Positions 11,177-60,750 of a stretch of 64,000 nucleotides of DNA are shown here, in pieces. A program made the translations under genes and the position numbers. The stretch covers positions 26,521,264 to 26,585,263 of the forward strand of contig OV121092.1 of NCBI GenBank assembly GCA_921293015.1. The letters run 5' to 3'. Each line of letters opens with the position of its first letter. Positions within the stretch are counted from its first letter, which is position 1. The stretch comes from Phorcus lineatus. Its lineage: Eukaryota > Mollusca > Gastropoda > Trochida > Trochidae. The notes beneath the pieces were generated by a model. It ran no database searches and was not told the origin of the DNA. It saw only the letters and a program-made list of their open reading frames with translations.

Positions 11177-11437
11177 TCCTGCCAGGGGCTCGGCAATGTT
11201 TGTCTGCAGTAGAGAACTCTTCTACACACAGTCTGGTTTGGGTTCAATGCTTCACTGATTTTTAGCGTAGTACCACCCGTGGTTCGCTAGTTCCAGCCGA
11301 CGTTCACAGGTTTCACCGTATTGCATAGCTACAATGGTGTTGCGGGATTTCTCCTTGCAATAATACTAGTAGCCGTGACATAAGTGAAATACTCTTGAAA
11401 GCGGCGTTAAACCACATATCACCTCACCTCGCCTTAA
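11177..11437 (+). mobile_element. SINE copy starting just after the T-loop
   Basis: Begins TCCTGCCAGGGGCTCGG, so the whole A box and most of box B are absent. It is flanked by a perfect 11-bp duplication ACACCCTTATG (11166-11176 and 11438-11448), which fixes the 5' end as an insertion boundary rather than later decay. The same start is seen at 16096 and 60496. Confidence 0.9.
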
Positions 11438-11448
11438 ACACCCTTATG

Positions 11449-14400
11449 GCGTACACGCTTATTTGCCAATCACTCTCGCAATGGATTTTGTTATATTTTT
11501 TTCTCTTAAAAAATCTAAATATCACATTAATAAATTTATTCAGGTAAAAAGTGAAAATGCTTGGAACAATATATTGCATCTGAAAACAGGCAGTGTTTAG
11601 AATAATCAAAAAAACTTTTAATGTGAAATTTAGATTCAGACATGAATTGTTTTATTGCTTTATGATAAAGATTTGCTGAGACCTAACAGTAAAGGTAGGG
11701 AAAAAACCCAAGGACAAATGTTGTCGGAAATAAATTGTTTCGCATCCATCAAAACAAGTGAAATTGATCATGTTTTTGACCCACATCACACAAGACACAC
11801 TGACCCAGCCTTGAACTTTATTGACTTGTTAGGAGCTCTACCGCTACACTGACCAACCGGGAGATTATCTCCCCTTCCTCTGTAACTCTTGAGTTTTTGA
11901 TAAGAGTAATAATGTATATGAAAAATCTTGTGTGGTTGTCAATCAGCCTGAAACATTAATTTCATATCAATCTTGATGCCAAAATGAAATGATAACCTTA
12001 AATTTGCGTGGTTTTTGCTTTAAGAATTGCAATGCAACACTGCATGATACTTGCAATTCAGTAAAGTGGAGTTTCCGTTTTTAAATAGTTATTTAATTCT
12101 ATCATTCTTAATTACTTCTGATTATTTAAATATCTGAGATTTTATGCAAAAATTACATCAATAAAATAAAAATAAAAATACTCAAAATAATAGTTTAAAG
12201 ATCTATTTGATTATAAGTAAGTTACATTTTGTTTCACTTACATGCACTCTATGGGAGATCAAAACAGAAGTCAGTGAGTTGAGGAAATTATAGAATGTGG
12301 CGTATCTTAAATATTTTTTTATATTTTGTCTGGCAACAGGAACAAAACATTAGTAGTTACAACTAACAAAGCTGTCATTAGATTTGTTTGAGCCAGGGTT
12401 TTCCTGACAACCAGATAAGTGCAACTAATGTACCTGTCACTTTCAATCCTTGAAATATACATGCAGACGTCAGTTTCTTCATTCTGATAAATGCTGAGAG
12501 CAGGATCGAGGTCTCTGGATTGAGTGATATGAAAGTCACATATGTAAAAAGAAAGAAATGGACAAATTTTTGGTTTTCTTTGTGTGTAATTATTGAGATT
12601 ATTGTGTTCACTTTTTAGGGCCGTAGTCTCTTGAAGAGCTAATGAGGTTCCTGCCATTGATGATAAGTGACATCTTTTTCGGCAAATGTACCTTTGTCTG
12701 GAAACAATTAACTGAACATGTTTAACTTGTTTTCCTTTGAGCAGGGTTGATTTCTTTTACCATACTGAAACAATTTCTTTGCAGAAGCTTTATTCAGTAA
12801 TGTAATTCAGAAATATCATGGGGGCCACTACTTTACACCAATGAGATTTGCTGCGCTTAATTCATATATGTATATAATATCTATATCCACAAATGTTGGT
12901 GCAATGTAGGAAGGCTTTGATTATCCAGTGATGGAGACTTGCACAAATTCCGCCTTGCAGTGGAAGTGTGAAGATGTAACTGTTAACACAAACATTTAAG
13001 TTCTTTGCATATACAACATTTATTCCTTCAATAAAAAACATTTTCACTTTTGAGGAAGTTTATTTGCCACAACAGATTTAATAGAAGTCGCCCAAGGGAT
13101 GAAATTCAAACTCGGAAGGCGGTGAGGGCATTCAAACACATGCAATATGATCCCTCCCAAGGTTCTGCCTTTCAAGTCCGATTTCCTATGTGGGATGTTA
13201 CATGTAATCTAAACCAGCCATCAGATATTTTTAGTCTGCTCATCTGCTTCTTAATTCCGTAAATTTTACTTGATTGACTGAGTGTCATCTTCAATTTGGA
13301 AATTGCCTTTGATAATTGTCCCTGAAGCATTTTGAAACAAGGAAATTTTGTAGATAACAGTGTCTATTGGTACATTTGGTCCTTGTAAACATGAATTGTA
13401 TTGAATCAAAGCTCACCAAATAACCAAAGATTTTTTGGGCATCCTATGTTGAAGAACTCTCCAGACACCATTGATTTGGTGACATTTAATTGACATTATA
13501 TTTTGGGATTCATATATTCTTTCAGCCACATGGCAATCATTCGACAATCTATTTCCTCTCTCATTGCCAAAATAAAAAGCTTTCGGTTAAATAAGCAAGC
13601 TTTCAATTAGTGAATTTTGGTGGTCAAAACCTAATATTAGAAATAAAGAGAATATTAAACGACATCCCATTTAATAAAATTGTTTTTGAACGAGTGAGTG
13701 GTTAGGTGTTTAATGACAGTGTCATTATCTACACCTAAACAGTGCAATCCTGCAACAAAGAAGTTGTAAATCCATAGAACTTGTTCTATATTGAAGAAAG
13801 TTGCTATCATGACCATTGTAGCCAGCCGTTGACATTGAGACGAAATACTTAACATTTATGACGTCATGTGACAGTGTTACATAAGGTGTGATTACATTGT
13901 AGCTGGATTTTTTAAAGAGTGGTATCTAACAGGCGATTGAGTAATAAATTCACTTAAGAGTGATCGAGTTCTCACGAACAGCTTCTGGTCGGCCATCTTG
14001 GTTTTGTTTTCATCAATGAAATATAAATTTGTAGTATCCATTAACATGGGCCAAAAAACGGAAACCTTTTCTCGTGATCTACATCTGAGGGAATTGCTTT
14101 TATATTTACTGGTAAATCAGTCATGTAAAAACCCAGCCATTATCCAGAAATGTCATCCATTGATAATCACACATAGACGTGGCTTCCGTGGATAGACAGC
14201 GGAATTGATGGGAAGCAAATCTGTAGAAGTGTTCCGTTGCATATCATAATGGCCTAGAAGTTAGGTTTTATTACGTTAACGCCGTTTGAGAAGTCATGTA
14301 TGATTTGTGGTAATTGAAAGATACTCAAAGCAGCTAGCCAATCATTTTGCAATATGCAATTTTCAATAATGAAGATAGGAAGCCTTGGACAAGATTTTTC

Positions 14401-14624
14401 AAGATCTCTCAGTGCTGAGATAGTCTGAGGCTAAGGTTTTTGTAAAGTCTTTACGATCATCTTAGCATTAAGAGAACTTTGGAAATAAGAAAATTATAAT
14501 TATTAAAGTTATATTCCTACTTCTTTATTTTCTGAAATAAAAACTTTTCTAGACTTGCTAAAGTGTATAAGACTTGCTTTTATGTTTGTATCTTGTATGT
14601 TTGCTTATAAACTAATGCTTTTAT
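11449..14624. other. Unique sequence, no gene seen
   Basis: The longest open frame is 112 codons on the minus strand (12319-12657) and has no recognisable domain or flanking splice pattern. A short GAGTGAGTGG word at about 13690 may be the remnant of a reverse-oriented ACTC tail. Confidence 0.45.
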
Positions 14625-14636
14625 TCTTGTTTTCTA

Positions 14637-14692
14637 CACATCGCTAATGGCTGAAATATTGCCCAAGCGGGGTGAAACAATAGCTCACTCAC
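14637..14692 (+). mobile_element. Ultrashort 56-bp retroposon, second copy
   Basis: Reads CACATCGCTAATGGCTGAAA, then GCCCAAGCGGGGTGAAAC, then a short ACTC tail. It is flanked by TCTTGTTTTCTA and TCTTGTTTTATA (14625-14636 and 14693-14704), one mismatch. The stem has decayed at its CpG positions. It starts within about four bases of the copies at 1954 and 51422. Confidence 0.75.
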
Positions 14693-14796
14693 TCTTGTTT
14701 TATAGTTAAAGGAATGTATGTATGCTTTAGATTGCCAATGATGTTTTTTCTTGTTTTATGGTTGTATGTCTATATGCTTTCGATAACGAGAGAGCT

Positions 14797-14825
14797 AATT
14801 ATTTTCTTTTTTCTTCCAGGTAAGT
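14797..14825 (+). promoter_or_regulatory. Candidate recursive splice site
   Basis: TTATTTTCTTTTTTCTTCCAG ends at 14819 and is followed at once by GTAAGT at 14820. A strong pyrimidine tract plus CAG directly joined to a consensus 5' splice site is the definition of a recursive (ratchet) splice site, used to remove very long introns in steps in flies and vertebrates. The surrounding DNA is long and gene-poor, as expected for such an intron. It could instead be an ordinary exon that happens to begin GTAAGT. Confidence 0.55.
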
Positions 14826-14876
14826 ACCATGCTGACCTTTGTATTGCCTCAAGTGTTCTTGTTGAAATCTTGGCAG
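14820..14876 (+). CDS. Candidate 57-bp exon (recursive-splice or cassette exon)
   Basis: Bounded by the strong 3' splice site ending at 14819 and by CAG followed by GTATGTAAG at 14877. Fifty-seven bases is 19 codons. Two of three frames are open. Read from the third base, it gives KYHADLCIASSVLVEILA, a protein-like string. Read from the first base, it gives VSTMLTFVLPQVFLLKSWQ. No protein family was recognised. In the vertebrate recursive-splicing model, a downstream 5' splice site like this one defines the temporary exon, which is normally skipped. The host gene is not visible here. Confidence 0.4.
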
Positions 14877-14877
14877 G

Positions 14878-15219
14878 TATGTAAGTTGAAATACTACGTC
14901 TCGAAAAAGAAAACAGTTTATTTAACAATAAAACAATTATTTACTACAAAACATGAATTTTTTTAATCAATTTGTGTCAATTAAATTGTGTCCAAAAATT
15001 TTTTCTGGTTTTGATAATGGATCATGAAGTATATAGAAACAAACAAATACAAATGTTAATATTTTTTAGTTGTTTCTGTATTATTCGAAACAACTAATTT
15101 ATTTGACTGTGCATTGACTCTAGATAGAAAGAAGTATTATCATTGGTTGAAATTGTTTGGCTTTTAGTTTGTGCTGCATTTTTCTCTGCATGCTGAAGGA
15201 ATCAGTCTGAGAAGTGCTC
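14878..15219. other. Unique sequence, no gene seen
   Basis: A+T-rich sequence downstream of the candidate recursive exon, with no further exon-like feature. Confidence 0.4.
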
Positions 15220-15280
15220 ATATTAAAACAGAGGTTAGGATAGGATTTTAGACTTGGGGCTACCTCTGTGGGAAGAGAAT
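15220..15280 (+). mobile_element. Relic of the 470-bp inverted-repeat element (one end)
   Basis: ACAGAGGTTAGGATAGGATT, then GGGGCTACCTCTGTGGGAAG and AGAATG, parallels the 3' terminal repeat of the element at 25074-25543 (CAAAGGTTGTATAGGAATT, then GGAGCTACCTCTGTTGGGAG and AGAATG). It is diverged, and the other end was not located. Confidence 0.5.
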
Positions 15281-16085
15281 GCACTCATCACCTGCAAGAC
15301 AGTTAACATTATTTGCAACAGCAAGGTATTCGATTTATAAAGTTTTTGTTCAACCTTTCTGAAATGAAAATACAAACTGACTACTTTCAATCTCACAGCC
15401 TACATTTGCATTATGAAAATGTAAGTAAGACGTAAACAAGCCCAATCTGATGTTTCTTTCCTTAAGGATGTTCGCTCCTCAGTCACAGTTACAAAATTCG
15501 AATAACCTTAAATCTTAATGTTTTAAAAAAGTAAACCAAAATGAAGCAGTAATTTCTCAATTTTGACGATTTCTGACTAAATTTTCATCAAAATAAAGAA
15601 ACGTAGTAATGAGTGGGAGAAAGCATGTCATTAGTCCAAAAAAGGCTTGAATGTTGATAATTTAATTGAAATGTTTGAATACATGATTTGCCCTAGCGGC
15701 TAAAACCCCACAGTACCATACATATTTTTTACTTTTTTCTGGCAGAAGATAATGTCAACTCTAACATGTTTTCATATTAAAAAATTTAATACAGGAACTA
15801 ATTAAAATTCAAGATTTCTCAGAAAAGGTCATCATTTTCCCACAGCTCCCATGTTAAAACTCTGACTGACAGATGGATCTTTGTCTCAAAAAAACCCACT
15901 CTCACCTCTATTTTTTATGGTGGGTATTTCAAGCAAATACACTAAACCTTTGAAAAAAACAAGTTAGAAAAAAAGTTTAATACTTTAAATGCTATGATCA
16001 CAGATGATCTGTTCTACTTTCAGAAGAATAATTGATATATATGACTTAATTTTTATCTTTAAAGGTTATATGAAAAACCTTTTTT
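15281..16085. other. Unique sequence, no gene seen
   Basis: A+T-rich sequence without exon-like or repeat structure. Confidence 0.45.
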
Positions 16086-16095
16086 AACTCTCCAG

Positions 16096-16348
16096 TCCCG
16101 CCAGGGGCTCGGCAACTTTGTCTGCAGTAGAGAACTGTTCTACTCGCAGTCAGGTTTGGGTGAAATGCTACACTGAAATTCAGCGCAGTACCACCCGTGT
16201 TTCGCTAGTTCCAGCCGATGCTCGCAGGTTTCACCGCAATGCATAATCACTATAGTGTTGCAGGCTTTCTCCCTGCAATAATACTAGCAGCCGCGATATA
16301 AGTGAAATAATCTTAAAAGCGCCGTTAAACCCCAACTCACCTCACCTC
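16096..16348 (+). mobile_element. SINE copy starting just after the T-loop
   Basis: Starts TCCCGCCAGGGGCTCGG, exactly after GGTTCGAA of the full-length element. It is flanked by a perfect 10-bp duplication AACTCTCCAG (16086-16095 and 16349-16358). The body and the tail (GATATAAGTGAAATAATC, GCCGTTAAAC, CACCTCACCTC) are otherwise well preserved. Confidence 0.92.
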
Positions 16349-16358
16349 AACTCTCCAG

Positions 16359-17169: not shown

Positions 17170-19209
17170 TTGCTAAAAACCTTAGGTTCTTGGACATGAA
17201 GACATATCTGTATCTCTATCTAGAACCATTACATCAAGAACCTAAGGTTCTTGGACATGAAGACACATCTCTATCTCTTTCAAGAATCCATAATGTTAAG
17301 AATCTAAGGTTCCTTCCGGACATGTAAACATATCCGTATCTTTTTCTAGAAGCATTACATCAAGAACCTAAGGCATGTAAGCACATCTGTATATCTGTTT
17401 AGAAGCTATTACATCAAGAACCTAAGGCATGTAAACACATCTGCATCTTTTTCTAGAAGCTATTACATCAAGAACCTAAGGCATGTAAGCACATCTGTAT
17501 ATCTGTTTAGAAGCTATTAAATCAAGAACCTAATTGTAAGCACATCTGTATATCTGTTTAGAAGCCATTACATCAAGAACCTAAGGCATGTAAACACATC
17601 TGCATCTTTTTTTAGAAGCATTACATCAAGAACCTAAGGCATGTAAGCACATCTGTATATCTGTTTAGAAGCTATTAAATCAAGAACCTAATTGTAAGCA
17701 CATCTGTATATCTGTTTAGAAGCCATTACATCAAGAACCTAAGGCATGTAAGCACATCTGTATATCTGTTTAGAAGCCATTACATCAAGAACCTAAGGCA
17801 TGTAAACACATCTGCATCTTTTTTTAGAAGCATTACATCAAGAACCTAAGGCATGTAAGCACATCTGTATATCTGTTTAGAAGCCATTACATCAAGAACC
17901 TAAGGCATGTAAGCACATCTGTATATCTGTTTAGAAGCTATTACATCAAGGACCTAAGGCATGTAAGCACATCTGTAGATCTGTTTAGAAGCCTTTACAT
18001 CAAGGACCTAAGGCATGTAAGCACATCTGTATATCTGTTTAGAAGCTATTACATCAAGAACCTAAGGCATGTAAACACATCTGCATCTTTTTCTAGAAGC
18101 CTTTACATCAAGAACCTAAGGCATGTAAGCACATCTGTATATCTGTTTAGAAGCCTTTACATCAAGAACCTAAGGCATGTAAGCACATCTGTATATCTGT
18201 TTAGAAGCCTTTACATCAAGAACCTAAGGCATGTAAGCACATCTGTAGATCTGTTTAGAAGCCTTTACATCAAGGACCTAAGGCATGTAAGCACATCTGT
18301 ATATCTGTTTAGAAGCTATTACATCAAGGACCTAAGGCATGTAAGCACATCTCTATATCTGTTTAGAAGCTATTACATCAAGAACCTAAGGCATGTAAGC
18401 ACCTCTGTATATCTGTTTAGAAGCTATTACATCAAGAACCTAAGGCATGTAAGCACATCTGTATATCTGTTTAGAAGCTATTACATCAAGAACCTAAGGC
18501 ATGTAAGCACATCTGTATATCTGTTTAGAAGCTATTACATCAAGAACCTAAGGCATGTAAGCACATCTGTATATCTGTTTAGAAGCTATTACATCAAGAA
18601 CCTAATTGTAAGCACATCTGTATATCTGTTTAGAAGCTATTACATCAAGAACCTAATTGTATATATAAGCACATCTGTATATCTGTTTAGAAGCTATTAC
18701 ATCAAGAACCTAATTGTAAGCACATCTGTATATCTGTTTAGAAGCTATTACATCAAGAACCTAATTGTAAGCACATCTGTATATCTGTTTAGAAGCCATT
18801 ACATCAAGAACCTAAGGCATGTAAGCACATCTGTATATCTGTTTAGAAGCTATTACATCAAGAACCTAATTGTAAGCACATCTGTATATCTGTTTAGAAG
18901 CTATTACATCAAGAACCTAATTGTAAGCACATCTGTATATCTGTTTAGAAGCTATTACATCAAGAACCTAATTGTAAGCACATCTGTATATCTGTTTAGA
19001 AGCTATTACATCAAGAACCTAATTGTAAGCACATCTGTATATCTGTTTAGAAGCTATTACATCAATAACCTAATTGTAAGCACATCTGTATATCTGTTTA
19101 GAAGCTATTACATCAAGAACCTAATTGTAAGCACATCTGTATATCTGTTTAGAAGCCATTACATCAAGAACCTAAGGCATGTAAACACATCTGTATCTTT
19201 TTCTAGAAG
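17170..19209 (+). repeat. 51/54-bp minisatellite array, about 38 copies
   Basis: The unit runs from AAGAACCTAAGG through ATGTAAGCACATCTGTATAT and CTGTTTAGAAG to CTATTACATC. There are two length states: 54 bp with CCTAAGGCATGTAAG, and 51 bp with CCTAATTGTAAG. The 51-bp form takes over the right side (18600-19130), the 54-bp form the middle. The leftmost two or three units are older, longer and include the near-palindrome AAGAACCTAAGGTTCTT plus GGACATG. A third variant (AAACACATCTGCATCTTTTT) is interspersed and also occurs at the right edge. Confidence 0.95.
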
Positions 19210-19320
19210 CATTACATTAAAAAAACCAAAAAACTTTGTGGTCATGGTAATGACGTCTTAAATGAGTAGCTTTTTGCGCTATGTTTAATCACATTTAGCT
19301 TAATGTATCAGTATATCCAA

Positions 19321-19790: not shown

Positions 19791-19799
19791 TCATTTTAG

Positions 19800-20511: not shown

Positions 20512-20524
20512 ACCAAACCTATCA

Positions 20525-20842
20525 GAGCGGGATAGCGCAGTGGTTAGCGTGTCCGGCTTCGGATCGAGAGGTCCATGGTTCGAATCCATCCAGGGGCTCG
20601 GCAACTTTGTCTGCAGTAGAGAACTGCTTTACACACAGTCAGGTTTGGGTGCAATGCTACACTGAATTTCAGTGCAGTAGCACTCATGGTTTGCCAGTTC
20701 CAGCTGATTCCCGCAGGTTTCACTGCAATGCATAGCCACAATAGTGTTGCGGGCTTTCTGCCAGCAATGATACTAGCAGCCACGATATAAGTGAAATATT
20801 CTTGAAAGCAGCGTTAAACCCCATATCACCTCACCTTACCTC
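20525..20842 (+). mobile_element. tRNA-derived SINE, full length
   Basis: Complete copy with box A TAGCGCAGTGGTTAGCG, box B GGTTCGAATCC and CACCTCACCTTACC tail. It is flanked by a perfect 13-bp duplication ACCAAACCTATCA (20512-20524 and 20843-20855). Confidence 0.95.
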
Positions 20843-20855
20843 ACCAAACCTATCA

Positions 20856-25890: not shown

Positions 25891-27920
25891 CCATCTGTAT
25901 CTCACATGATACACAGAGCAGGTGAATGTGTGTCCATGTTAACCTCTCCTTATGTTGGTGAAGATGTTGAACAGTTAAAACTTCTCACACGATACACAGA
26001 GCAGAAGATGAGTGTAGCTATGTGGGGTCCTGTAGATGACTTGTCCTGATGTTGGTGAAGATGTTGAACAGTTTAGACTTGTCGATCTGTTTCTCACATA
26101 ATACACAGAGCAGAAGATGAGTGTAGCAATGTGGGGTCCTGTAGATGACTTGTCCTGATGTTGATGAAGATGTTGAACAGTTTAGACTTGTCGATCTGTT
26201 TCTCACATAATACACAGAGCAGAAGATGAGTGTAGCAATGTGGGGTCCTGTAGATGACTTGTCCTGATGTTGATGAAGATGTTCAACAGTTTAGACTTGT
26301 CGATCTGTTTCTCACATAATACACAGAGCAGAAGATGAGTGTAGCTATGTGGGGTCCTGTAGATGACTTGTCCTGATGTTGATGAAGATGTTGAACAGTT
26401 TAGACTTGTCGATCTGTTTCTCACATAATACACAGAGCAGAAGATGAGTGTAGCAATGTGGGGTCCTGTAGATGACTTGTCCTGATGTTGATGAAGATGT
26501 TGAACAGTTTAGACTTGTCGATCTGTTTCTCACATAATACACAGAGCAGAAGATGAGTGTAGCAATGTGGGGTCCTGTAGATGACTTGTCCTGATGTTGA
26601 TGAAGATGTTGAACAGTTTAGACTTGTCGATCTGTTTCTCACATAATACACAGAGCAGAAGATGAGTGTAGCAATGTGGGGTCCTGTAGATGACTTGTCC
26701 TGATGTTGATGAAGATGTTGAACAGTTTAGACTTGTCGATCTGTTTCTCACATAATACACAGAGCAGAAGATGAATGTAGCTATGTGGGGTCCTGTAGAT
26801 GACTTGTCCTGATGTTGGTGAAGATGTTGAACAGTTTAGACTTGTCGATCTGTTTCTCACATAATACACAGAGCAGAAGATGAATGTAGCTATGTGGGGT
26901 CCTGTAGATGACTTGTCCTGATGTTGATGAAGATGTTGAACAGTTTAGACTTGTCGATCTGTTTCTCACATAATACACAGAGCAGAAGATGAATGTAGCT
27001 ATGTGGGGTCCTGTAGATGACTTGTCCTGATGTTGGTGAAGATGTTGAACAGTTTAGACTTGTCGATCTGTTTCTCACATAATACACAGAGCAGAAGATG
27101 AGTGTAGCAATGTGGGGTCCTGTAGATGACTTGTCCTGATGTTGATGAAGATGTTCAACAGTTTAGACTTGTCGATCTGTTTCTCACATAATACACAGAG
27201 CAGAAGATGAATGTAGCTATGTGGGGTCCTGTAGATGACTTGTCTTGATGTTGGTGAAGATGTTGAACAGTTTAGACTTGTCGATCTGTTTCTCACATAA
27301 TACACAGAGCAGAAGATGAGTGTAGCAATGTGGGGTCCTGTAGATGACTTGTCCTGATGTTGATGAAGATGTTGAACAGTTTAGACTTGTCGATCTGTTT
27401 CTCACATAATACACAGAGCAGAAGATGAGTGTAGCAATGTGGGGTCCTGTAGATGACTTGTCCTGATGTTGATGAAGATGTTGAACAGTTTAGACTTGTC
27501 GATCTGTTTCTCACATAATACACAGAGCAGAAGATGAATGTAGCAATGTGGGGTCCTGTAGATGACTTGTCCTGATGTTGATGAAGATGTTGAACAGTTT
27601 AGACTTGTCGATCTGTTTCTCACATAATACACAGAGCAGAAGATGAGTGTAGCAATGTGGGGTCCTGTAGATGACTTGTCCTGATGTTGATGAAGATGTT
27701 GAACAGTTTAGACTTGTCGATCTGTTTCTCACATAATACACAGAGCAGAAGATGAGTGTAGCAATGTGGGGTCCTGTAGATGACTTGTCCTGATGTTGGT
27801 GAAGATGTTCAACAGTTAAAAGTTGTCCTTCTTTTTCTCACTCGATACACAGAGCAGGAGGTCCTGTAGATGACTTCTCCTCATGTTGGTGAAGATGTTA
27901 AACAGTTTAGACCTGTCCTT
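25891..27920 (+). repeat. 109-bp tandem array, about 18-19 copies
   Basis: The unit includes GTGGGGTCCTGTAGATGACT, TGTCCTGATGTTGATGAAGA, TGTTGAACAGTTTAGACTTG and CTCACATAATACACAGAGCA. Central copies differ at only a few positions (GCAATG/GCTATG, TTGATG/TTGGTG, GAGTGTAG/GAATGTAG), while the first and last units are clearly diverged, the usual outcome of unequal exchange. Since 109 is not a multiple of three, the many 65-76-codon minus-strand frames are staggered by-products. Confidence 0.95.
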
Positions 27921-29034: not shown

Positions 29035-29955
29035 TGTCATTCTGTCAGTTAAAGAGATGGACTCGCAACATTAATGGACATGACTTTATAATGGATGACC
29101 TTTCTTGATTATCTATGATTGTTGATTTGTCACCAGGAATTAATGATATCTTTAGTCTTGATAATCTTTGCTGTCCAAACTTAATGCTGTTCTTTCAATT
29201 CTGATGCGAGATAGCGCAATAGTTAGCGCATTCTGCTTCTGATCGTGAGGTCTGGGGTTTGAATCCTGCCAAGGGTTGGGCAACTTTGTCTGTAGTAGAG
29301 AACTGTTCTACATACAGTAAGGTTAGGGTGCATTGCTTACTGAATTTCAGTGCAGTAACACCCATGGTTCACTGGTTCCAGCAGATGCTCACAAGTTTCA
29401 CCGCAATGCATAGCCACATTGGTGTTGCAGGCTTTCTCCCTGCAATAAAACTACCTGTCATGATACATGTGAAATATTCTAGAAGGCAGCTTTAAACTCC
29501 AAACATTCCCTCTAACATCTATTCAGAGAAGGACTCAAAAGACTTCACCAAAATTGGACTTGAAAGACCTGACCATGATAAAATTTTGATTATTTTGTGG
29601 ACAGTCTTCTTTTAAGTCTAAAGATAGTCGAACATCACTTTCAGCTGTTCAGAATTAAAAATGTTGTTTAAAAACTATAGACTATACATAAACTAGCTCA
29701 CAAGACTAGCATTAATTGATGTGACATTATAATGGATGGCCTTCTTGTTCATCTATAATTGTTGTCTTGTCAGAAGATATCAATGAGAAGACTAAAGTTA
29801 GTCTGTAGTCTTTAAGCTATCCAGAACTTCTGTTGTTGTCTCACATCTATTAAGAGATGGACTCTCAAGACCTAACCATGTTAATGGCTTTGAGTTTATA
29901 ATGGACGGTCTTTTCATGTCAATCTATGATCTAAATAGTCGTTTCTCCAACATTA
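29035..29955 (+). repeat. Decayed long-period repeat, about three units, split by a SINE
   Basis: Blocks such as AGAGATGGACTC, TTATAATGGATG(A/G)CC, ATCTATGATTGTTG(A/T) and TTAATGG recur near 29055, 29690 and 29860. The copies are strongly diverged, and the SINE at 29201 lies within or beside the first unit. Confidence 0.55.
29201..29509 (+). mobile_element. tRNA-derived SINE, full length, diverged
   Basis: Starts CTGATGCGAGATAGCGCAATAG, with box B GGTTTGAATCC and the usual body. The hairpin and tail have decayed (GGCAGCTTTAAACTCC) and no clear target duplication remains. Confidence 0.85.
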
Positions 29956-35200: not shown

Positions 35201-35479
35201 AAGGGGTGGAGTAGCGCAGTGGTTAGGGTGTTGGGCTTCGGATCAAGGGGTCTTGGGTTTGAATCCTGCCTGGGACTCACCAATTTTGTCTGCATTAGAA
35301 AACTGTTCTGCATGCAATAAGGGTGCAATGCTACACTGAATTTCAGCGTATTATCACCCATGGTTTGGTATTTCCAGCTATTGTTTGCAGGTTTCCCTGT
35401 AATGCAAAGCAGAATAGTGTTGCAGGCTTTCCCCCTGCAAGCGTTAAACCCCAAACACCAAATCACCTCACCTCACCTT
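35201..35479 (+). mobile_element. tRNA-derived SINE with internal deletion near the 3' end
   Basis: The head is intact (GAGTAGCGCAGTGGTTAGGG; box B GGTTTGAATCC). The piece from AATAATACTAGC to CTTGAAA, including the 5' arm of the GC hairpin, is missing, giving CCCTGCAAGCGTTAAAC. The CCTCACCTCACC end is present. The deletion probably followed insertion. Confidence 0.88.
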
Positions 35480-38440
35480 AAAATTCATGGAAATTAACCA
35501 CTGCTTGCTTGCCATGTTCATTTTCGATGATGTTGTTTTCAAATTTATCACTGCATTGATAGTTTTCCCCTGGTATTAGATCATTATCTTTGTTGTCTGT
35601 TATTCAACATGATGTTGTTATTTCCCAAAGGTCCTTTTACAAAACTTTCATGCGTGGTTCAACATTTATGTGATAGGACTTTAATGTACAAACTGCTTTT
35701 TTATAATTGAAATGATTATTTCATGTTTTTAATATTATGTTTTTGATATACTTGCTTTTGTTATTCAATCTACTCACTGATTGATGTTCTAGCCTTGATG
35801 TTTATGTTATTGATAAAACATGAGAGAGGTGATGGTTTTGATGATAAAACCCTTGGAATAAAACTTGTGGAAGTAATTAAGGCGTTTAACTTTTCTTTTG
35901 GTCTTGCTTCCCACTCAGGTTTTGCAATTCTGATCATAACTTCTCTCTTGTGGTTTATTCACATTGATTTACAGATTTTTTGTGCAAATGTCTAATGGCG
36001 GGAGACCAAACAAATATTTTAAAATAAAATGCAAATTCGCTCAAGTTAAGATGAAAAGTTTTGGGTATGCGAAAAAGTACAGAAATGGATTAAATATAAA
36101 AAATGTTCTTTTTTTGTGAAGTTGGATTATGAGTCGCAATTAATTTATCAAAATTAGTCAGATTCCGTAAATCAAATTAATTTTTTTTTCCCCAATGAAA
36201 CTCCAACATACTGCAGTTAAATATAAATAACTAAACAACACTTTGGCTCCTCAATCAATCAATCAAACTGAAGAAATGATATACAGTTAATATACCTTTA
36301 TTACAATGGGAACAAATAGGTATTTGTCACTGGCTAAGAAATCCGGATTACCTGTATGTTTAAGTTCCCATAGGTTAAATGGTAAAAGATACAGTTTGAA
36401 TAATATCTATATTAAAAACACCTTGAAAATGCTCTTCTACGTCCGAATTCTTATTTCCTAGTGAATTAGAGAATTCTATTAACATGTCGGTCATCTAAGC
36501 ACAATGTGAACATGATCACTTTTATGTGTGTGGATCATGCAAGATTGAAATAGAGGTCTGTTTAGCATATTATATTCTCCTGCTACTAAGGAAGGAATGA
36601 TATGGCTATAAATGTCAGGTTTATAGGCTGTTAGCGCATCTTTGTCCTATAAAATAACATTCCCTTCCTGCTGCTGTTCCGTACATACCAGGTTCATGGA
36701 TACTTTTAATTCTTTGAAAGAGTTATGAGATTATTAGACTGACAACGGTATAAAAACAATGTTTATTTTCACTGATACCCTTGCTGTTGATGATATAAAA
36801 ACATATTGATAACTCTCTTTAGAATATTTTTACTAGAGTTTTGTTGATATATTGTAGTAAAGAAATTGTGATATATTCTCTGACGATAAATGTATCATGA
36901 AATATATATTTTTTACTTTAAATGCTGTTAAATTTAGTCAAAACCTTAAATGCCATTCTCTATTTGAAATAGGTAATGGTGATCGATACGTATCGTATGG
37001 AATCGTATTGTAATGAAGTGTTGTGATATATATGCCATTGTGACATGTTTTTATCGTCATGACTCCACTTCTTACGTTATAGGTAATAATTGATAAATCT
37101 TAAATGAAGCAACTCAAAAAAGTGAAACTAAAATGTCAGTTTTTCATTTTTGAACCAGAACTTTAAATCTCATTTTTTTCCCACTGAAAGTGTATACACG
37201 TAACAAGCAAGCGGTAAACATGTACAATTTGCTATTCGTTTGTTGTTTTTTTCACGGAAATGAATGTTGTTATATTGAAATGTCATCGCATTTTTACATG
37301 GCATGTTTTCAGGCAATTTTTTAAAATCGATTAGTAGATATATAGATGAAATAAATTCTTCTTGATTGTAAATGAAGGGTTGAGGAAAGCTTTCTCTACA
37401 TAGTTTATGACGAGGACAGGCTTCAATCATAGGAATTAAATCTTGGTTCATATTTTGCACAATTTGCATAGTTAGTTTCTTTCTTTTTTTTCAATATACT
37501 GTACAAATTTTTTTAGAGACCATCCCACTTTTCAATGTCTAGGTTTTTGCATACATCATAATTTTAGCTATATCAAATATTTAGATATTGAAAATTGGGG
37601 TTTAAATTTCTGAGTATTTTTTATGACTTCTTAGAGAATTTGATAAAGAAAATTGAAAAAAGGGCAGGTCAGCTGAAGTTTGGGGTTTGAAGATTAATTT
37701 AATTTTTTTTACTTTTATAGCTCTAATTTTTCTATGGCAATGGTCTTTATTTTCAAAGCATGATAACAGATATGAATTCATTGCTTTGATTATAATCCCT
37801 GTATTAAATTTTTAAAAATAAGTTTTGAGGGAACCAGCATTTTGTTAACAATGAGAGAAAAGATCTTTTTTTTGTTTGAATTTCAACCATATTGTCCGTA
37901 AGTGCTAAATATGAAGTTGATATCAAGAGGTTTTATTAGCAAAATATTTTTTGTATATCTTTTCTATGAATTTAGCAAACCATTTATTATTTCAGGTTCA
38001 GGTTCAGGTCTACAAGTTTGTGGCTATTGGACCATGATGCTTTGTTCAAAACATTGACCAATTCTATTTCTATCCTAATCTCTAATGAAAATTGACTTTT
38101 TTAGTTCAGAGACTAGACTATTGTTCAAATATTATCAGTGTGTGGTACATAGGAATGCCTTCATGTCACGATCCTATTAATGGCATTGAATTACCGTAAT
38201 TGACTTAATAAAAGACATAGAAATTGAAAAAAATGTTGGTGCTTCTAAAAATGATTAAACATTCAATTAAATGAGAGAAATATCACCCAATAGAATAAAA
38301 ATATAATCTCATAAATGCAAGAGGTACATTTTAAATCTTGCTCCCAGACTAAAGAAAAAAACAAGGGTAAAAAAACATTTTCAGTAACTAACTAGGTGTA
38401 TCAAAGTCAGTATTTTGTAAGGGGTGCTTTCTTCTCATTT
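35480..38440. other. Unique A+T-rich sequence, no gene seen
   Basis: Contains the palindrome CGATACGTATCG at about 36974 and (GGTTCA) direct repeats at 37994-38011. The 99-codon minus-strand frame at 37170-37469 has no recognisable domain. Confidence 0.45.
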
Positions 38441-38754
38441 GGGGGCGGGCTTGCGCAGTGGTTAGCGCATTTGGCTTCAGATCAGGATGTCCGTGGTTCG
38501 AATCCTGCCAGGGGCTCGGCAGCTTTGTCTACAGTAGAGAACTGTTCTACACGCAGTCAGGTTTGGGTGCAATGCTACACTGAAATTCAGCGCAGTACCA
38601 CCCATGGTTCGCTTGCTCCAGGAGATGCTTGCAAGTTTCACCGCAATGCATAACCACAATGGTGTTGCAGGCATTCACCCTGGCAAAATACTAGTGGCCA
38701 CAATATAAGTGAAATACTCTTGAAAGCGGCGTTAAACCCATTATCACCTCACCT
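38441..38754 (+). mobile_element. tRNA-derived SINE, full length
   Basis: Complete and well preserved: GGGGGCGGGCTTGCGCAGTG start, GGTTCGAATCC box B, GAAAGCGGCGTTAAAC and CACCTCACCT end. A possible short target duplication around TCATTT is too weak to fix the ends. Confidence 0.92.
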
Positions 38755-39559
38755 GACTATTTCATCATTTTTGGGTACTAAGAAGGAGAAGGCATTTATC
38801 AATTTCAGACCAAATATGAAACATGTTTCAAACATTGTGGCGTAATTAATTTTCAGGAAAGATGTCTTCAAGCTTCAAACTGAGTATCAGGCAGTGAATG
38901 AGCTTTTGAATCCTTTGAAATAATGATTTGGACAGATTAAAGGACATTGCAGGTTTTCCTGTCAAACAGGTCCACATAGAAAAAAATCGAAACTTGTTTC
39001 AAAAGCATGTTTTTCTTGAAGTTGTCAGTATTGATATGCACTCCCGAGATACAAACTACCTTTGTGCATGAATGATATCCCTTGATAGAACATAAAAAAT
39101 TAATTACATTTTAGATGTTTCATTTTTCTCAAACAAAAGAAAGCCAACATAGTTTCATAACCTTAATGACCATACAGGATACAGAATGGTAATCTTTATA
39201 AATACCATATGTTCAAACTTTTTAGACGCTACTTCATGTTCAAAGTTTGCTGTTGAAAGTTGCAACTCAATATTAAACCTTCTATACTTATTCATCTACA
39301 GCATACATAAAGCACAAGAAACCAGGCTATATATTTCAGCACTGTGAAGCAACCAAGTGGAACACGGGTTTGACCATCCAGAAATGTTGTTCTTTGAAAT
39401 AAACGATATATCACTGGAGTGTTATAGACATTGGATAATAGTTTTATTATACATTTGTAAACTCAGCCTGGAATATGTTTATGTCGTTAGTAGCTGGATG
39501 TTGTCTACATCATTTATTTGCTGCAAGATGATCAATTGAAATAATTCAAGGATTTCTTT
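38755..39559. other. Unique sequence, no gene seen
   Basis: No exon-like or repeat structure was found. Confidence 0.45.
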
Positions 39560-44809: not shown

Positions 44810-46212
44810 GGGGGCGGGATAGGGTTTGGTGCCAATGTGCCTATACATCCCAAAGCGCCTACATCCCAATGTGCCTACAAAAAATGTGTATGCACATTGG
44901 GGACTGAAAAAACACCCCCTTCTCAGAAAATGGGTATTACCCGTAAGTCAACAGTTGTTACCTAACAAAGCAATTTTAAGTTCATTAAAGAGTAGCAGTG
45001 TTAACAAAACGTTGTCAGACATAAAAGGAAAACTTGCATTGAGTCATCATAGTAATGGCCACAAGGGCAAGATGAGGTTGGGGATATGAATCGTTCATAT
45101 TTGTGTGCATGGAGATCACTACATTCAAGGTCAGGTATTTGGTAAACTTTACCTTGTGTGAAAAGAAATTATTGATCCAAAATTCTAAATCACCCCAAAA
45201 CAGGTTTTTATCAATCAAATAATTCTTTTTTAGTATAAATGACTCTGTGCAAGAATCTGAATTCAAACCATGCCCATATAGGTTTAAAACATTGTGCCAG
45301 TTGAATTCACAATCAGAGAATATTTTTTCCTATTTGATACATATTTCAAGTTTATCACCTTTAGAAATAAGTCTGTGATAGAATGTTTCAGAGCCTTTGG
45401 AAATTTTAAATATATACATTCCTTTGGTATATACTTATGTATTCATTATAAAGTATAATATTGGAGCGGTTGATAATCTTTTCCCAAGTATCTGGTAAGA
45501 TGCGAATGAGATTGATGTTTCAAAAGATATAAACCCATGTTCACCCTTCACTCTCAATAAACTCTTATTTGCTATAATGTCTGTTGAGGATGCAAGGGAC
45601 GCTGTAGTAACGTAGTTACACTAGTTACATCAGTGCAGCCAAGCAGTGTGACGTGTAAAACCACATTTATTATTGCAATGATTTTTTAATGAAATAAATA
45701 TCAAACTTCATCAAATAAGGAAGCGTGAAAAGTCATGTGAAATAAAATTTGTTATTGTCATTATCAAACTACTCTGGATCAAGTGGATGAGTCCATTGTC
45801 AAACATAGGTTTGAGGAACTGATACACAAACCACTCACGCATGGATTTGTTTTGATAGCAGTGTAGGCAAACTGGGCTGTAGGCACATTGGGAACATACC
45901 CGGGATAGTTCAGTGGTTAGCGTGTTCGGCTTCGGATCAAGAGGTTTGTAGTTCCCACCAGGAGCTCGGCAAATTTGTCTGCAGTAGAGAACTGTTATAC
46001 ACTCAGTCAGGTTATATGGTGCAATGCTACACTGAATTTAAGTGCAGTACCACCCATGGTTCACTAGTTCCAGCCGATGCTCTCCAGTTTCACCACAATG
46101 CTTAGCCACAATGGTATTGTGGGCTTTCTCCCTGCAATAATAATGGCAGCAGCTATATAAGTGAAATACTCTTGAAAGCTGCGTTAAACCCCATTTCACC
46201 TCACCTCACCTC
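44810..46212 (+). mobile_element. tRNA-derived SINE interrupted by a DNA transposon
   Basis: The SINE starts GGGGGCGGGATAG at 44810, is interrupted, and resumes at TTCAGTGGTTAGCG (45909) through to the CCTCACCTCACC end. The whole is flanked by a 10-bp duplication AAATTTATTA (44800-44809 and 46213-46222), proving one SINE insertion later split in two. Box B is damaged (GTAGTTCCCACC). Confidence 0.92.
44823..45900. mobile_element. 1,078-bp nonautonomous DNA transposon inside the SINE
   Basis: Bracketed by an 8-bp duplication CGGGATAG (44815-44822 and 45901-45908) of the SINE's own head. The ends are imperfect inverted repeats: GGTTTGGTGCCAATGTGCCT at the left; GGTATGTTCCCAATGTGCCT reading in from the right. 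Each end carries extra subterminal CCCAATGTGCCTACA-like words, plausible transposase-binding repeats. GG termini with an 8-bp duplication suggest Merlin; a Mutator-like or hAT-like group is not excluded. No transposase is encoded; the 87-codon frame at 44826 is made of the terminal repeats. Confidence 0.88.
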
Positions 46213-47879: not shown

Positions 47880-48279
47880 AGGGGGCGGGATAGCGCAGTG
47901 GTTAGCACGTTCGGCTTCGGATCAAGAGGTCTGTGGTTCGAATCCCACCAGGGACTCGTCAACTTTGTCTGCAGTAGAGAACTGTTCTACACGCAGTCAG
48001 GTTTGGATGCAATGCTACACTGAATTTCAGCGCAGTACCACCCATGGTTCGCTAGTTCCAGCCGATGCTCGCAGGTTTCACCGCAATGCATAGCCACTAT
48101 AGTGTTGCGGGCTTTCTCCCTGCAATAATACTAGCAGCCGCGATATAAGTGAAATAATCTTGAAAGCGGCGTTAAACCCCAACTCACCTCACCTCACCTC
48201 ACCTGCAATAATACTAGCAGCCGCGATATAAGTGAAATAATCTTGAAAGCGGCATTAAACACCAACTCACCTCACCTCA
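47880..48279 (+). mobile_element. tRNA-derived SINE, reference copy, with duplicated 3' tail
   Basis: The best-preserved copy. The tRNA-like head (47881 to about 47955) has A box TAGCGCAGTGGTTAGC and B box GGTTCGAATCC. Its anticodon region CTTCGGATCA resembles tRNA-Arg(UCG). A unique body of about 170 bp follows, then the tail hairpin GCCGC...GCGGC within AGCCGCGATATAAGTG and GAAAGCGGCGTTAAAC, then (CCTCA)n. After the first tail, the final part from TGCAATAATACTAGC onward is repeated once (48204-48279). TATATATGT at 47871-47879 and 48284-48292 is a probable target duplication. Transcription by pol III and mobilisation by a partner LINE are inferred from the class. Confidence 0.95.
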
Positions 48280-53865: not shown

Positions 53866-53869
53866 CTGA

Positions 53870-55200: not shown

Positions 55201-57260
55201 GGGTAATCTGATCAGGCAAAATTTATCCCCATCATGCGTTATGATTATAGAAAGTAAACAACTCGGAAACTGGTTAATAAGCTCCTAATGAATTCATCAG
55301 ATAAGATCAAGTTAATGACTTTCCACTATTATGTCAATTATAAGATACAGCAGAGATGCATCAAGTTGTTTGTCTACAGAAGGAGCCTGGGATGTACAGC
55401 ATATGGTAAACTCTGTTTACGTTACCTCGCTACCAGGAGAACGCAGCTGTGCTGAATTGAGATTGCACTTGCTAAGGTTTCCTTATCATATTCATTTAAA
55501 AAATAAAATATTTAACTCGTCCCATTATGTCTATCCACATGTTCAATATTTTTTAAAAAGTAGATAAAATTTGCTGTAAACTGCGTTATATTATTCAAGG
55601 CGTAGTAATGTATGATTTGGAGACATTATGGAAGTCTAGATAGGATGTCGTATTACCTCTTTCCTTGCTGGGTGAAAGCATGGTCGGGAAGGTGAACACG
55701 ACAGAGAGAAAGTGTTAGAAATTAGGTAAGTAAGAGTTAATCATGATTAAGGAGGCGAGATAAGCCCTGTGATTAGAGAGCACAGATGCTGACTTTCCTG
55801 TGAATGTATGGTGGATCTTGATTATCTGCTGTCAGTTGTGATTATCCTTGATTATCTATTCACTTACATATATTCTGGATAGCATTTGTGAAGTCCTCTT
55901 TGAGAATGGAATGACTTGTTGAAATTTTGATGTGATGATGAATATTCACTTTCTGCTTGTTGAAGTGAAATAAGTTGTGGAATTAATAAGGAAACTAGCA
56001 TGTGTTCTGAATGTGATATATAAGAAGAAAAAAATGTTTTATTTACGTGTCACATGTTGTTATAAAACATTTGGAACAAAAATCAATTTTAAAAACAACA
56101 TCCAGCCTTAAAAGGCTTATGAGACACGGATATCATTGATAATCTAAAACAATAGCTGTTTATAAATATGTACTATTTGTTTGATGACTAGTTATTGGTA
56201 GTCATTTTTGTTTGTCATTTTATTGCTTATATTGAGGCATAATCTGATGTTTTTGTTGATAACAAATCAGTTTTGTGATTCATATCCACACTTAGCTTAA
56301 GTTTTTCTAAATTTATTTGGTATGCAATCTTAAACTTAACACAAAATTGTCAAACTAGAAGTGTTGTAACTTACTGTTTAGAATAAATTTTCATTCAAGA
56401 TTGATTCATAACTTCTTTATGCGACAATGTTGTAATCAATCGTGTTGTTTTAAAGTAGAATTTCTTAGTGACTATGATTCGATCGATCATCAACTTTCTA
56501 ACTTATTTTGTTCTACAATTTATAGAGAAAATGGTAATGATCGTCTAGGCAATCACTTATATCGCACGATTGAAAATGAGAAGACAATTTAATTATGGGC
56601 CTTCCAGACATCCTTTATACATCTCTTGAGATTTCCAGAATAATTTGTCAACTTAGAACAGCAACATTGAATTGTCAGATAATGGTTTCATTACATTGTG
56701 ACCTGGATTTCTCACAAGTGTTTTTCTTCTACAGTTTTAAGAAAAAATTAATTTCTATTTTAGTACTGTTGATGCTGCTAATTAATTAGTTCTAACCATT
56801 CTGCATGTCCTTTTTACTGGAATAAAGGTAAGGGATAATTAAGCCACTTGTTAAGATAAGGCTGTCATAGAATATTCTATTACCTCTAGGTAAATATATA
56901 CTATATATATAAACTATAAAGAAACGCAGTCAAGTATTCTTACATAATGGTATCAGAATAGAATTTGTCCTTTTGTGAACTCGAGATGCCACTATCAATG
57001 GTCTTTTAGTTCTTTTATCCTTCAAATTCTGTGCTACTACCATAAACAAGACATATGTTCAACACTCTTATAGTTTTAGGAAGAACACTTTGAAAATATG
57101 CCCCTTTTGAGAGCATGTTTATACAGGAAGATGTGAAGTAGAGATGTGAAGTAGAGACTTGAAGTAGGTCTAACATCAAAGTGCTGTGGTATATGGTGCA
57201 GTTTCAAGTTTCGGTGACTGGGTAATGTTCATTTTTGTATGGAAAATGAATGCAATATAA
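55201..57260. other. Unique sequence, no gene seen
   Basis: Short open frames at 55331 and 56401 show no domain. No repeat structure was recognised. Confidence 0.4.
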
Positions 57261-57267
57261 CAATTGA

Positions 57268-57545
57268 TATATGGAGCAAAGTCGTGCAGTGGTTTGTTAG
57301 CACTTTGGCCCCTGGCGCCAAAGGGTTTGGTTATAATCCAGGTGGAGACAGCAACAAATTGTGACCTGGGCTTTTCACTGGGTTGTGCCCCTGGGCAAGG
57401 CAGATCTTTATCGCACTCAGTTCACCTAGATGCACAGATTGGTACCTGAACATAGGAAGAATTTCCTGTATAGGTTTCCAAGGCGTCCAGTTGTTACCTC
57501 CAAAGTGCAATTCCTTCTGGTGCAGCCAATGAGCAGTTATGACAG
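57268..57545 (+). mobile_element. Third SINE-like repeat with tRNA-like head
   Basis: GTCGTGCAGTGGTTTGTTAG and AGGGTTTGGTTATAATCC are degraded A- and B-box positions. The body GGGTTGTGCCCCTGGGCAAG and TCGCACTCAGTTCACCTAGA is a widespread invertebrate SINE-type motif. No target duplication was found; old copy. Confidence 0.6.
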
Positions 57546-58573
57546 TGGATATTAAGCTAAAAATTTTAATTATTAATTAAGTTATATCCTTTAATGATAC
57601 AAGTTTCTGTTGATGCACCTGCTTTCTTAGGTATAGTAAGTGTTACAATAACAAATTAAACTATTGAAATTATCTCCTTTTACTCGATCTTCATGTTCAA
57701 ATTTTCTTCAAAATTGTTAAGAAATCTTGCAATAGAAATCAAACTTAGCGTTGATCATAAAAACAGAGAACCAAACATCATTCCCTTCAAACAAAGTACC
57801 AGATGGATGTAATAAACTGGAAAATATGATAAATTTTGATTACGAGTTTTAACTCAAAATTAACTCTTTCAACAGAATTGCAAAAATAGTGGTCTTTATC
57901 ACATTCAATGCAAAAACAAATACTGTCTCTTCAATCAATCCATTGGAACGAGATTATCCTCATTGAAGAAAACCAGTGCCAAATTTTTAAGCTTTCTTAG
58001 CGCTAAGGTGATCAATGATATTGTATAGTTCCTTAACAATCTTAGCTCCATGAGAGCTTCAGAAATTTAACAATGAAAACTTCATAGAAACTTTGAATGC
58101 TGGATTTTATGAATGTTGACAAGACTCCCTGTGTTGGAAGTGTGTCACACAGCAAATGTACAAAAGATGCTTCTAGAAATGATGCAGCTGTACTTCATCG
58201 CCTGTTGATGAAGTACGTTGATGAAGTGAACGTCCTTGCTGGTATATTGATGAACACAAGCCGCCATGTTTTAGTATTATTTGATGGGGAGTCAAGCTGA
58301 TTGTTGAACTGTTAACAGTTGGGTCACAGCTGGGGCAGTCAATGTCGTATTGTGTTTGATTTTCAACAACAGACTGATACAGAATAAACTCTTGCTTGAA
58401 AAACCAACAATGTGAAGAAAACATTTTTGTCTTTAGAAGAATTGAAAAGAACAAAAAAGTTAGTTGATCAATCCAAAATTTATTGGTTTCAATAACACAA
58501 TCATAATACTTACAGCAGCATTTCAACACCCACTTGGCCATGTTTGACTGTAAACTGTTCAGTCTATACAGCA
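57546..58573. other. Unique sequence, no gene seen
   Basis: A 67-codon + frame (58097-58300) and a 133-codon minus frame (58173-58574) overlap each other; neither shows a domain. Confidence 0.4.
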
Positions 58574-58585
58574 TCTTGTTAGAAA

Positions 58586-58912
58586 GGGGCGGGATAGTGC
58601 AGTGGTGAGCCCGTTCGGCTTTAGATCAAGAGGTTGATCTGTGGTTCGAATCCTGCCAGGGGCTCGGCAACTTTGTCTGCAGTAGAGAACTGTTCTACAC
58701 ACAGTCAGGTTTGGATGAAGTGCTACACTGAATTTCAGCGCAGTACCACCCATGGTTCACTTGTTTCAGCCGATGCTCGCAGGTTTCACCGCAATGCATA
58801 GCCACAACAGCTTTCTACCTGCAATAATACTAGCAGCCGCAATATAAGTGAAATAATCTTGAAAGCGGCGTTAAACACCAACTCACCTCACCTCACCTCA
58901 CCTCACCTCACC
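58586..58912 (+). mobile_element. tRNA-derived SINE, full length, long CCTCA tail
   Basis: Complete copy with GGTTCGAATCC box B, a small insertion in the head (AGGTTGATCTGTGG) and an expanded (CCTCA)n end. It is flanked by TCTTGTTAGAAA and TCTTGTTGGAAA (58574-58585 and 58913-58924), one mismatch. Confidence 0.93.
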
Positions 58913-59189
58913 TCTTGTTGGAAAAAATGATGTCATGTTTGGTTTCACTGCCAAACTGACGTCATTTCTGGGTCAGAAATCAAAATAAATACAAATATTT
59001 TAATAGAACTTAACATTCAAGCTCCCAGTGTAGATTTATGAATTGCCAAATTAAATTTATCCCATAGCACTTTTGCTTGTATGGAAATATTGTTGTCATT
59101 ATTTGACTTAAGAAAAGGTTCCCTTTGTGATAAGAATTCAAATCCCATCTAAATCCAGAAATGAAGGATCCTTAGACCCACAGACAGAA

Positions 59190-60075
59190 TGCCTACGATA
59201 AGATTGTCCTCAAATTGTTCTTGTCAGGTAAAAATCCAATCCAAAAGGATATAGAAAGGTCTAAATGAAGTCATGTTGACAAAATTATCTCCCTAATGGT
59301 GATATCCTGTAATTTGCTAAACACTATGTTCAAGGTCAATCTAAAAGTAAAAATGATGATTCCAAAATCTATAAAACAAAGAAGATAAAGATCTGTCTGG
59401 AAGTATTATTGTAGGCTGCACCCAAAGGTTTCAATGTCCAAACTAAAATCTCTTTGAAAATAATCTTTTAAAATTCACCAAAACACCATATCCCTTCTCT
59501 ACTGCAAAGAAAAAAGGTTTCATGCACCAGGAGAATAATTGTTCAAAACTAAATTTCTCTGAAATAGTTATTTTGAACAATGACGAAAGTTTCACCAACT
59601 GCATTTGCATAAAACTGTCCAAGACAATATCTCTGTGAAGTGTTTTGTTCAAGGTCGAAATCAATAAAAGGAATAAAATTTTAAAACATTAGGAGACAGA
59701 CTGTCCCAAAAAGATTTTCCTGAAAGAGTTCTTCCAAAGATTTAAGACACTTCATGAGAGTCTGTCTGTCAACAACATTTCCTATAATGTTTCGTTAACT
59801 GGCACCAACTCATCAGTCCTGACCAATAATAGAATAAAAGTTTACAGAGACAAGATACCATGAACAAAATCTCCATGAAATAGTTCCTTAATTGGCGCCA
59901 ATGGTTGCAGAATCTGCATGAGCATCTGACTGTCCACAACAAGATCTTATTGTAGTGTTTTGGTAACTGGCACCAAAGCCTGTCAAAGTTCTATAAAATT
60001 GGAGAATGGTTCCAAAGACAGACTTCCTGAAACCACAATCTCCTTCAAAGTATCCAGTGTCTCCCAGGAGATAAC
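59190..60075 (+). repeat. Decayed long tandem repeat region
   Basis: A motif of the form AAAATCTC(C/T)(A/T)TGAAATAGTT, followed by AACTGGCACCAA(A/C), recurs about six times at irregular 100-170-bp spacing (for example near 59445, 59560, 59625, 59790, 59870, 59945). Copies are much diverged. Confidence 0.55.
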
Positions 60076-60216
60076 CAGAGATCAGTGAGTGTGAAGTTGA
60101 TGTATTTATCCTGAGGGAAGGATATCTGTATGGAGGCCATTAACCTGTCTCTTTCATGGCAGGATTATTGTCAGACTTATTGTCATCTGCTTGCTTCCTC
60201 CCATCACATGGTTTAA

Positions 60217-60410
60217 GCTTTGTAATTTGAGTCCTTGGTCAGTGATAGATCTATATGACCTGTTGAGTCCAGGGAATCCCTACTGAAAGGTCTTTTGAGT
60301 TAAGGATTTGTAATTTGAGTCCTTGGTCAGTGATAGATCTACAAATATGACCTGTTGAGTCCAGGGAATCCCTACTGAAAGGTCTGTTGAGTTCAGGCTT
60401 TGTAATTTGT
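60217..60410 (+). repeat. About 90-bp tandem duplication, two copies plus start of third
   Basis: TTTGTAATTTGAGTCCTTGG through TCCAGGGAATCCCTACTGAA and AGGTCT recurs from 60219 and 60307; a third start follows at 60399. The copies are almost identical, so it is recent. Confidence 0.92.
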
Positions 60411-60495
60411 GTTTTCGGTTTGTTCTCACCTTTGTAAAATGTGTCTCATATTACTTTGACCACATATGACAAAGAAAAGTCAACAGGTTAATGAT

Positions 60496-60750
60496 CCCGC
60501 CAGGGGCTCGGCAACTTTGTCTGCAGTAGAGAACTGTTCTACACGCAGTCAGGTTTGGGTGCAATGCTACACTGAAATTCAGCGCAGTACCACCCATGGT
60601 TTGCTAGTTCCAGCCGATGCTCGCAGGTTTCACCGCAATACATAGTCACAATAGTGTTGTGGGCTTTCTCCCTGCAATGATACTAGCAGCCGCGATATAT
60701 GTGATATAATCTTGAAAGCGGCGTTAAACACCAACTCACCTCACCTCACT
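60496..60750 (+). mobile_element. SINE copy starting just after the T-loop
   Basis: Starts CCCGCCAGGGGCTCGG (or one T earlier, ambiguous with the target copy). It is flanked by a perfect 16-bp duplication TCAACAGGTTAATGAT (60480-60495 and 60751-60766). The body is highly preserved, so this insertion is young. Confidence 0.95.

Follow-up and report, generated by a model that had tools for sequence, protein, structure and literature searches.

The question raised by this locus is why separate copies of one retroposon, each inserted at its own site, should begin at the same base, when 5' truncation of retroposons is often regarded as the random fall-off of reverse transcriptase (RT). The window, by which we mean the whole 64,000-nucleotide stretch of Phorcus lineatus DNA analysed here (GCA_921293015.1, contig OV121092.1, positions 26,521,264 to 26,585,263 of the forward strand; contig C19 in our genome counts), holds one abundant family of short interspersed elements (SINEs). 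A profile scan gave 17 matches to it, all on the + strand, comprising 11 copies with a tRNA head, three headless copies, a body fragment (34586), an extra 3' end (48202) and a weak fragment (48424). The headless copies occupy 11177–11437, 16096–16348 and 60495–60750, and their sharing of one start base is confirmed. We consider it fairly likely that this start records recurrent truncation of the headed SINE RNA, in independent events, at the position that is T60 in tRNA numbering.

The consensus of the family, built from 29 full-length copies, is 317 nt long; its tRNA head is followed by a body, and the tail reads CTCACCTCACCTCAC. Boxes A and B are present in it as TAGCGCAGTGG and GGTTCGAATCC, and 38 dispersed copies have their own exact target-site duplications (TSDs) of at least 8 bp, as expected of a tRNA-derived SINE. 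The head matched the Rfam tRNA model at 20.7 bits (E 0.066), below the gathering score of 29, and a search of the window with ARAGORN found no tRNA. The acceptor pairing is complete at 7 of 7 positions, the 5' GGCGGGA of the head facing TCCCGCC, a heptamer that occurred in 44 of 20000 shuffles. The headless copies have TCCCGCC at their 5' end, which aligns with this 3' strand of the acceptor; they begin inside the tRNA part and therefore derive from headed ancestors or headed RNA, and the idea that they stem from a separate family of bodies, to which a head was added later, is rejected on the same ground.

The initial annotation had claimed that each of the three copies is bounded by its own perfect TSD and that all start just after box B within one base, and both claims were borne out. 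The exact duplications, found by direct reading on the + strand, are ACACCCTTATG (11 bp; 11166–11176, repeated at 11438–11448), AACTCTCCAG (10 bp; 16086–16095, repeated at 16349–16358) and TCAACAGGTTAATGAT (16 bp; 60480–60495, repeated at 60751–60766). When the 5' flanks were shuffled, the observed repeat length was reached in 0, 4 and 0 of 5000 trials for copies 1, 2 and 3, respectively, which supports the three headless 5' ends as true integration ends. Copy 1, an older element with 85% identity to copy 3, begins with TCCTGCC and copy 2 with TCCCGCC, in both cases unambiguously at T60. In copy 3 the A and T ahead of CCC fit either the TSD or the element, so that its start may be A59, T60 or C61 (60494–60496), that is, T60 within one base. 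The headed copies of the window have GGTTCGAATCC at the corresponding site, exactly in 5 of 11 and as variants in the other six, which identifies the start of the headless copies as T60, the base directly after GGTTCGAA and two bases 3' of A58.

Part of the copies beyond the window came from 30 loci chosen because they resemble copy 3 from A59 onward, a choice that under-represents later truncations; the window itself and 20 stretches of contig C1 were not chosen for SINE content. Of 72 matches examined at a threshold of an exact TSD of at least 8 bp, the 38 that qualified divide into 24 full-length and 14 truncated copies. Five of the truncated copies start at T60 within one base and no other start recurs among them, the remainder being scattered over the D-loop region, the anticodon region, C56 and the body; L005:2943, counted among these 14, is an artefact produced by the tail repeat. 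The start is also T60 in L015:658, a sixth such copy, whose TSD has a length of 7. Three truncated or gapped copies were noticed in this sample. In L007:1499, which is truncated, TGGTATCCC stands where the consensus has TGGTTCGAATCCC, four T-loop bases being gone, and in L005:1458 and L026:1459, both with clear target duplications, part of the D-loop region is missing (GGGGG or ATAGC joined to TTAGCG), perhaps through jumps during copying.

To these samples we added counts at seven positions over 958 Mb of the genome, using a pattern in which an exact core is preceded by four obligatory bases, each differing from the head consensus, so that a headed copy can scarcely match except through an internal deletion. 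There were 68 matches at T60, 45 at A59, 12 at C61 and 20 at A58, and at the control positions 11 (consensus position 54), 8 (position 70, the 3' foot of the acceptor helix) and 14 (position 165, the foot of a body hairpin). After six T60 matches and three of those at position 165 had been set aside as tandem repeats, 62 at T60 compare with 7.7 expected at the mean control rate (Poisson P ~1.7e-34), a ratio that is approximate, as the controls used other cores than T60 did and core totals were uncounted. With the flank composition taken from the 24 full-length insertions, the estimated number of T60 copies is about 178 (95% range 109–305); taken together, the estimates after de-duplication lie at about 168–185 (ranges 105–305), against 13–45 per control position. 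The 42-mer just after T60 has 2286 exact matches in the genome, and of the 100 places listed two were in the T60 list, one in the A59 list and one in the A58 list (by eye); any figure for the T60 fraction of all copies is rough, the total for the 28-base core being uncounted. The starts over the seven tested positions are thus not flat but peak at T60; flat truncation is rejected, the earlier doubt about random RT fall-off was well placed, and the T60 site is supported as fixed and recurrent genome-wide. Two local clusters of headless copies were seen on contig C15: three copies with the common flank TTTG at 261-bp spacing (35355498–35356051), which resemble a small satellite-like tandem array, and five more with the flank ATTC within 25 kb (26549168–26573508).

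How sharp the start is depends on the reading of the matches at A59. The base at position -1 of full-length insertions is A in 14 of the 24 TSD-bearing copies, which may reflect a second-strand or target preference, and a model in which every start is at T60 and is preceded by this A-rich base predicts 47 A59-pattern matches, where 45 were seen. The A59 matches are explained because an A-rich base precedes insertions, and so one start base suffices. Plain genome composition had at first given 73–80 copies for a second true start at A59; this was withdrawn when the A bias was allowed for, the estimate of A59 starts then being 0 (range 0–207).

The initial annotation had offered a headless subfamily or master as its alternative, and here the relationships of the copies speak against it. 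When 53 bodies were placed on a tree, the T60 copies, six in number, required six changes, which is the maximum (bootstrap 6–6; mean with shuffled labels 5.8), a single headless clade is rejected (approximately unbiased test, p-AU 0.00471), and the closest relative of each T60 copy is a copy without the T60 start in 6 of 6 cases. L001, the same locus as a window copy, and L022, which overlaps L005, were omitted from the tree and the TSD table. The T60 copies are both young and old, their best identities to any other copy being 98.8% (L019 and L029), 97.3%, 96.1%, 90.1% and 88.5%. On these three grounds a single headless master is rejected. The genome-wide peak and the scatter on the tree together point to recurrent truncation of headed SINE RNA, and neither to one headless lineage nor to random fall-off.

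We therefore envisage a tRNA-derived SINE that would be moved by an RT presumed to be of the long interspersed element (LINE) type. In the samples seen, insertion would mostly be full length; in a recurrent minority the cDNA would end at T60, directly 3' of GGTTCGAA, and each T60 copy would be an independent insertion from headed SINE RNA. The obstacle would then sit in the head RNA around A58/A59. Several observations weigh against this account. The A58-start pattern has 20 matches where 6 are expected from T60 alone (estimate 64, range 0–129), so that there may be a shoulder at A58, and the flank estimate behind such figures is based on 24 copies. Look-alikes produced by internal deletion, judged by eye, make up 4 of 68 matches at T60, 3 of 45 at A59, 5 of 12 at C61 and 6 of 11 at position 54. 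The lineage test rests on six copies, the starred branches of the tree alone force no more than two changes, and its 45 'head' rows include copies with partly truncated heads. Two further points concern the folding of the RNA. The acceptor helix 3' foot is without a peak (8 matches) and the body hairpin 125–163 (-13.4 kcal/mol) has no clear peak at its foot (14 matches, 11 de-duplicated, core total uncounted), and local hairpins at 2–38 (-15.9 kcal/mol) and 48–76 (-11.9 kcal/mol, spanning T60) compete with the predicted fold of the head.

If truncation is indeed recurrent, the cause to which in our judgement most weight should go, if less than an even chance, is RT stalling at a folded or protein-bound head; a modified base such as 1-methyladenosine at position 58 (m1A58) and an RNA already cut in the T-loop are each given the same, rather small weight, and any other cause is given little. 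Taken as an explanation in its own right, a structural stop, with RT stalling at the foot of helix 31–61 or at a protein on the tRNA-like head, is possible though doubtful. The head is predicted to form a three-way junction in which helix 31–61 ends exactly at A58, two bases before T60 (pair probability 0.91), with -13.8 kcal/mol for 30–62 and a z-score of -2.96 for the head, and in human Alu elements 5' truncations are reported to fall at stem-loops and at sites of SRP9/14 (PMC4666360). However, the want of a clear peak at the two other helix feet, one of them that of a body hairpin of like energy, argues against predicted stability as the sole determinant of the site. A simple hairpin stop thus fares badly in two checks, an objection that a head-bound protein, by analogy with SRP9/14 on Alu, would escape.

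The initial annotation had tentatively ascribed the fixed start to m1A58. On this reading some of the SINE RNA would carry a methyl group at A58 as tRNAs do, RT would stop before the methylated base and the genome would keep a fossil of the modification. The T60 site does lie two bases 3' of A58 inside an intact GUUCGA motif, the genome-wide peak is at T60, and HIV-1 RT terminates the synthesis of plus-strand strong-stop DNA ahead of m1A58, where copying ends after an 18-nt primer stretch, equivalent to ending after position 59 (PMC13191261). The last copied base expected is accordingly 59, yet the mode here is T60, one base short of the textbook m1A58 stop, and the -1 bias leaves A59 starts at the 0–207 given above. 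Headed copies carry no footprint of read-through in the form of excess substitution at A58, where the base is not A in 39 cases versus 44 at A59 (binomial p 0.66), although a block without read-through would likewise leave no A58 substitutions. The 3' strand of the T-stem is absent from the head, and in the predicted fold A58 has U31 as its partner (p 0.91); TRMT6/61A is reported to require a T-loop-like structure (PMC9141559), and a weak hairpin of 4 bp that has UUCGAAUC as its loop is possible in prediction, at -3.8 kcal/mol. This evidence weakens the m1A58 explanation but does not refute it, as every headed copy may have arisen from RNA that lacked the modification, and we regard it as unlikely. 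What stands of the initial interpretation is thus the true ends, the fixed and recurrent site and the non-flat distribution of starts, whereas m1A58 as the cause gains no support and the headless master is contradicted.

We hold no more probable a cleavage of the SINE RNA in the T-loop, as in the formation of tRF-3 (a class of tRNA-derived fragments), after which the tailed 3' piece would be reverse-transcribed to its end. The fragment tRF-3a is described as an 18-nt product of T-loop cleavage (PMC12816258), so that its 5' end would fall close to position 59, and the T60 junctions match the A-rich -1 base of full-length 5' ends, as run-off at an RNA end would. But the predicted fold has no open T-loop, and the same -1 bias could arise from target choice alone. 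Least probable, and in our view very unlikely, is a headless lineage or an internal start at T60 with transcription of the SINE without its head: a headless master would likewise yield copies with one start, and a weak box-B-like GGTTCG stands in the body near consensus position 166 (consensus read by eye), but the lineage conflicts with the tree, and a pyrimidine start would be unusual for RNA polymerase III.

The headed copies of the window, all on the + strand and found by the profile scan, lie at 7325–7641, 7876–8184 (with an 11-bp TSD), 20525–20839 (with a 13-bp TSD), 29203–29503, 38440–38757, 45901–46209 (a match from model position 8, with a decayed box B), 58585–58896 and 62518–62831, with an older copy at 35202–35476 and an old one at 1235–1519. 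The eleventh, a full-length SINE with its tRNA head at 47881–48197, contains the best local tRNA match (47884–47950), which is that of 20.7 bits. Directly after it stands the 3' end of another SINE, ~80 bp in length (48202–48279) and slightly different from the first (GCGGCATTAAACACC versus GCGGCGTTAAACCCC), so that the pair is no plain duplication, and low-complexity sequence resembling TATATATG flanks the pair (47881–48279) on both sides. A jump between two SINE RNAs while they were being copied is a possible origin. Outside the main family, L042:7381 (- strand) and L050:1280 share a tRNA-like start, GTGGTGT(A/G)GTGGTTAGCATGCT, and a box B, and perhaps represent a second tRNA-derived SINE; as two single copies they were too few for a second test of truncation. 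The window also contains two long tandem arrays, one at 17321–19217 (54-bp unit, ~36 copies) and one at 25982–27857 (109-bp unit, ~17 copies).

Parts of this behaviour have counterparts elsewhere. Human Alu elements are likewise TSD-bearing SINE insertions of which a minority (~16%) is 5'-truncated at non-random places, a truncation ascribed to RT pausing at RNA structure or at bound SRP9/14, with microhomology at the 5' break also discussed; their truncations nevertheless form broad bands (7–45 and 55–171 bp), whereas the present peak has a width of about one base and falls within the T-loop part of a head derived from tRNA, and unlike the Alu pattern there is no peak at the two other helix feet tested (PMC4666360). 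Human SVA insertions are also truncated, with some potential hotspots, but SVA is not tRNA-derived and the passages available name no single base or cause (PMC10681720). The HIV-1 strong stop on tRNA-Lys3 resembles the present site in being an RT stop beside A58 of the T-loop; there copying reaches base 59 and the modification has been demonstrated as the cause, while here the mode is T60 and the modification hypothetical (PMC13191261). Mammalian tailless retropseudogenes of tRNA and small nuclear RNA are again retrocopies of small RNAs with TSDs and defined truncation positions, mostly in single-stranded regions, but in them the 3' end is cut, a loss attributed to internal priming, whereas the SINE copies here keep an intact 3' tail and have lost the 5' end (PMC5322556, PMC4476161). 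Non-random 5' truncation (Alu), potential hotspots (SVA) and fixed 3' truncation (small-RNA retropseudogenes) are thus already known; our searches of an open-access library, read as listings and selected passages, turned up no report of 5' truncation confined to one base of the T-loop in a tRNA-derived SINE.

That the start is confined to about one base of a tRNA-like head points to a specific event that ends copying. As box A and the greater part of box B are missing from the headless copies, the product of each event is probably a dead copy. Should the event be a stop at RNA structure or at a bound protein, the Alu observation would be extended to tRNA-derived SINEs at base resolution. Should it be a tRNA-type modification or a T-loop cut, histograms of SINE start positions would offer a readout, from sequence only, of RNA modification or cleavage across animals, including activity now extinct. 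Tentatively, then, and as a possibility we would not yet favour, the fixed start may record either a base modification of the tRNA type on the SINE RNA or a cut in its T-loop; the host would in that case treat the SINE as a tRNA and remove the promoter from a fixed proportion of the new copies, a brake on the spread of the family that could be read from the genome alone.

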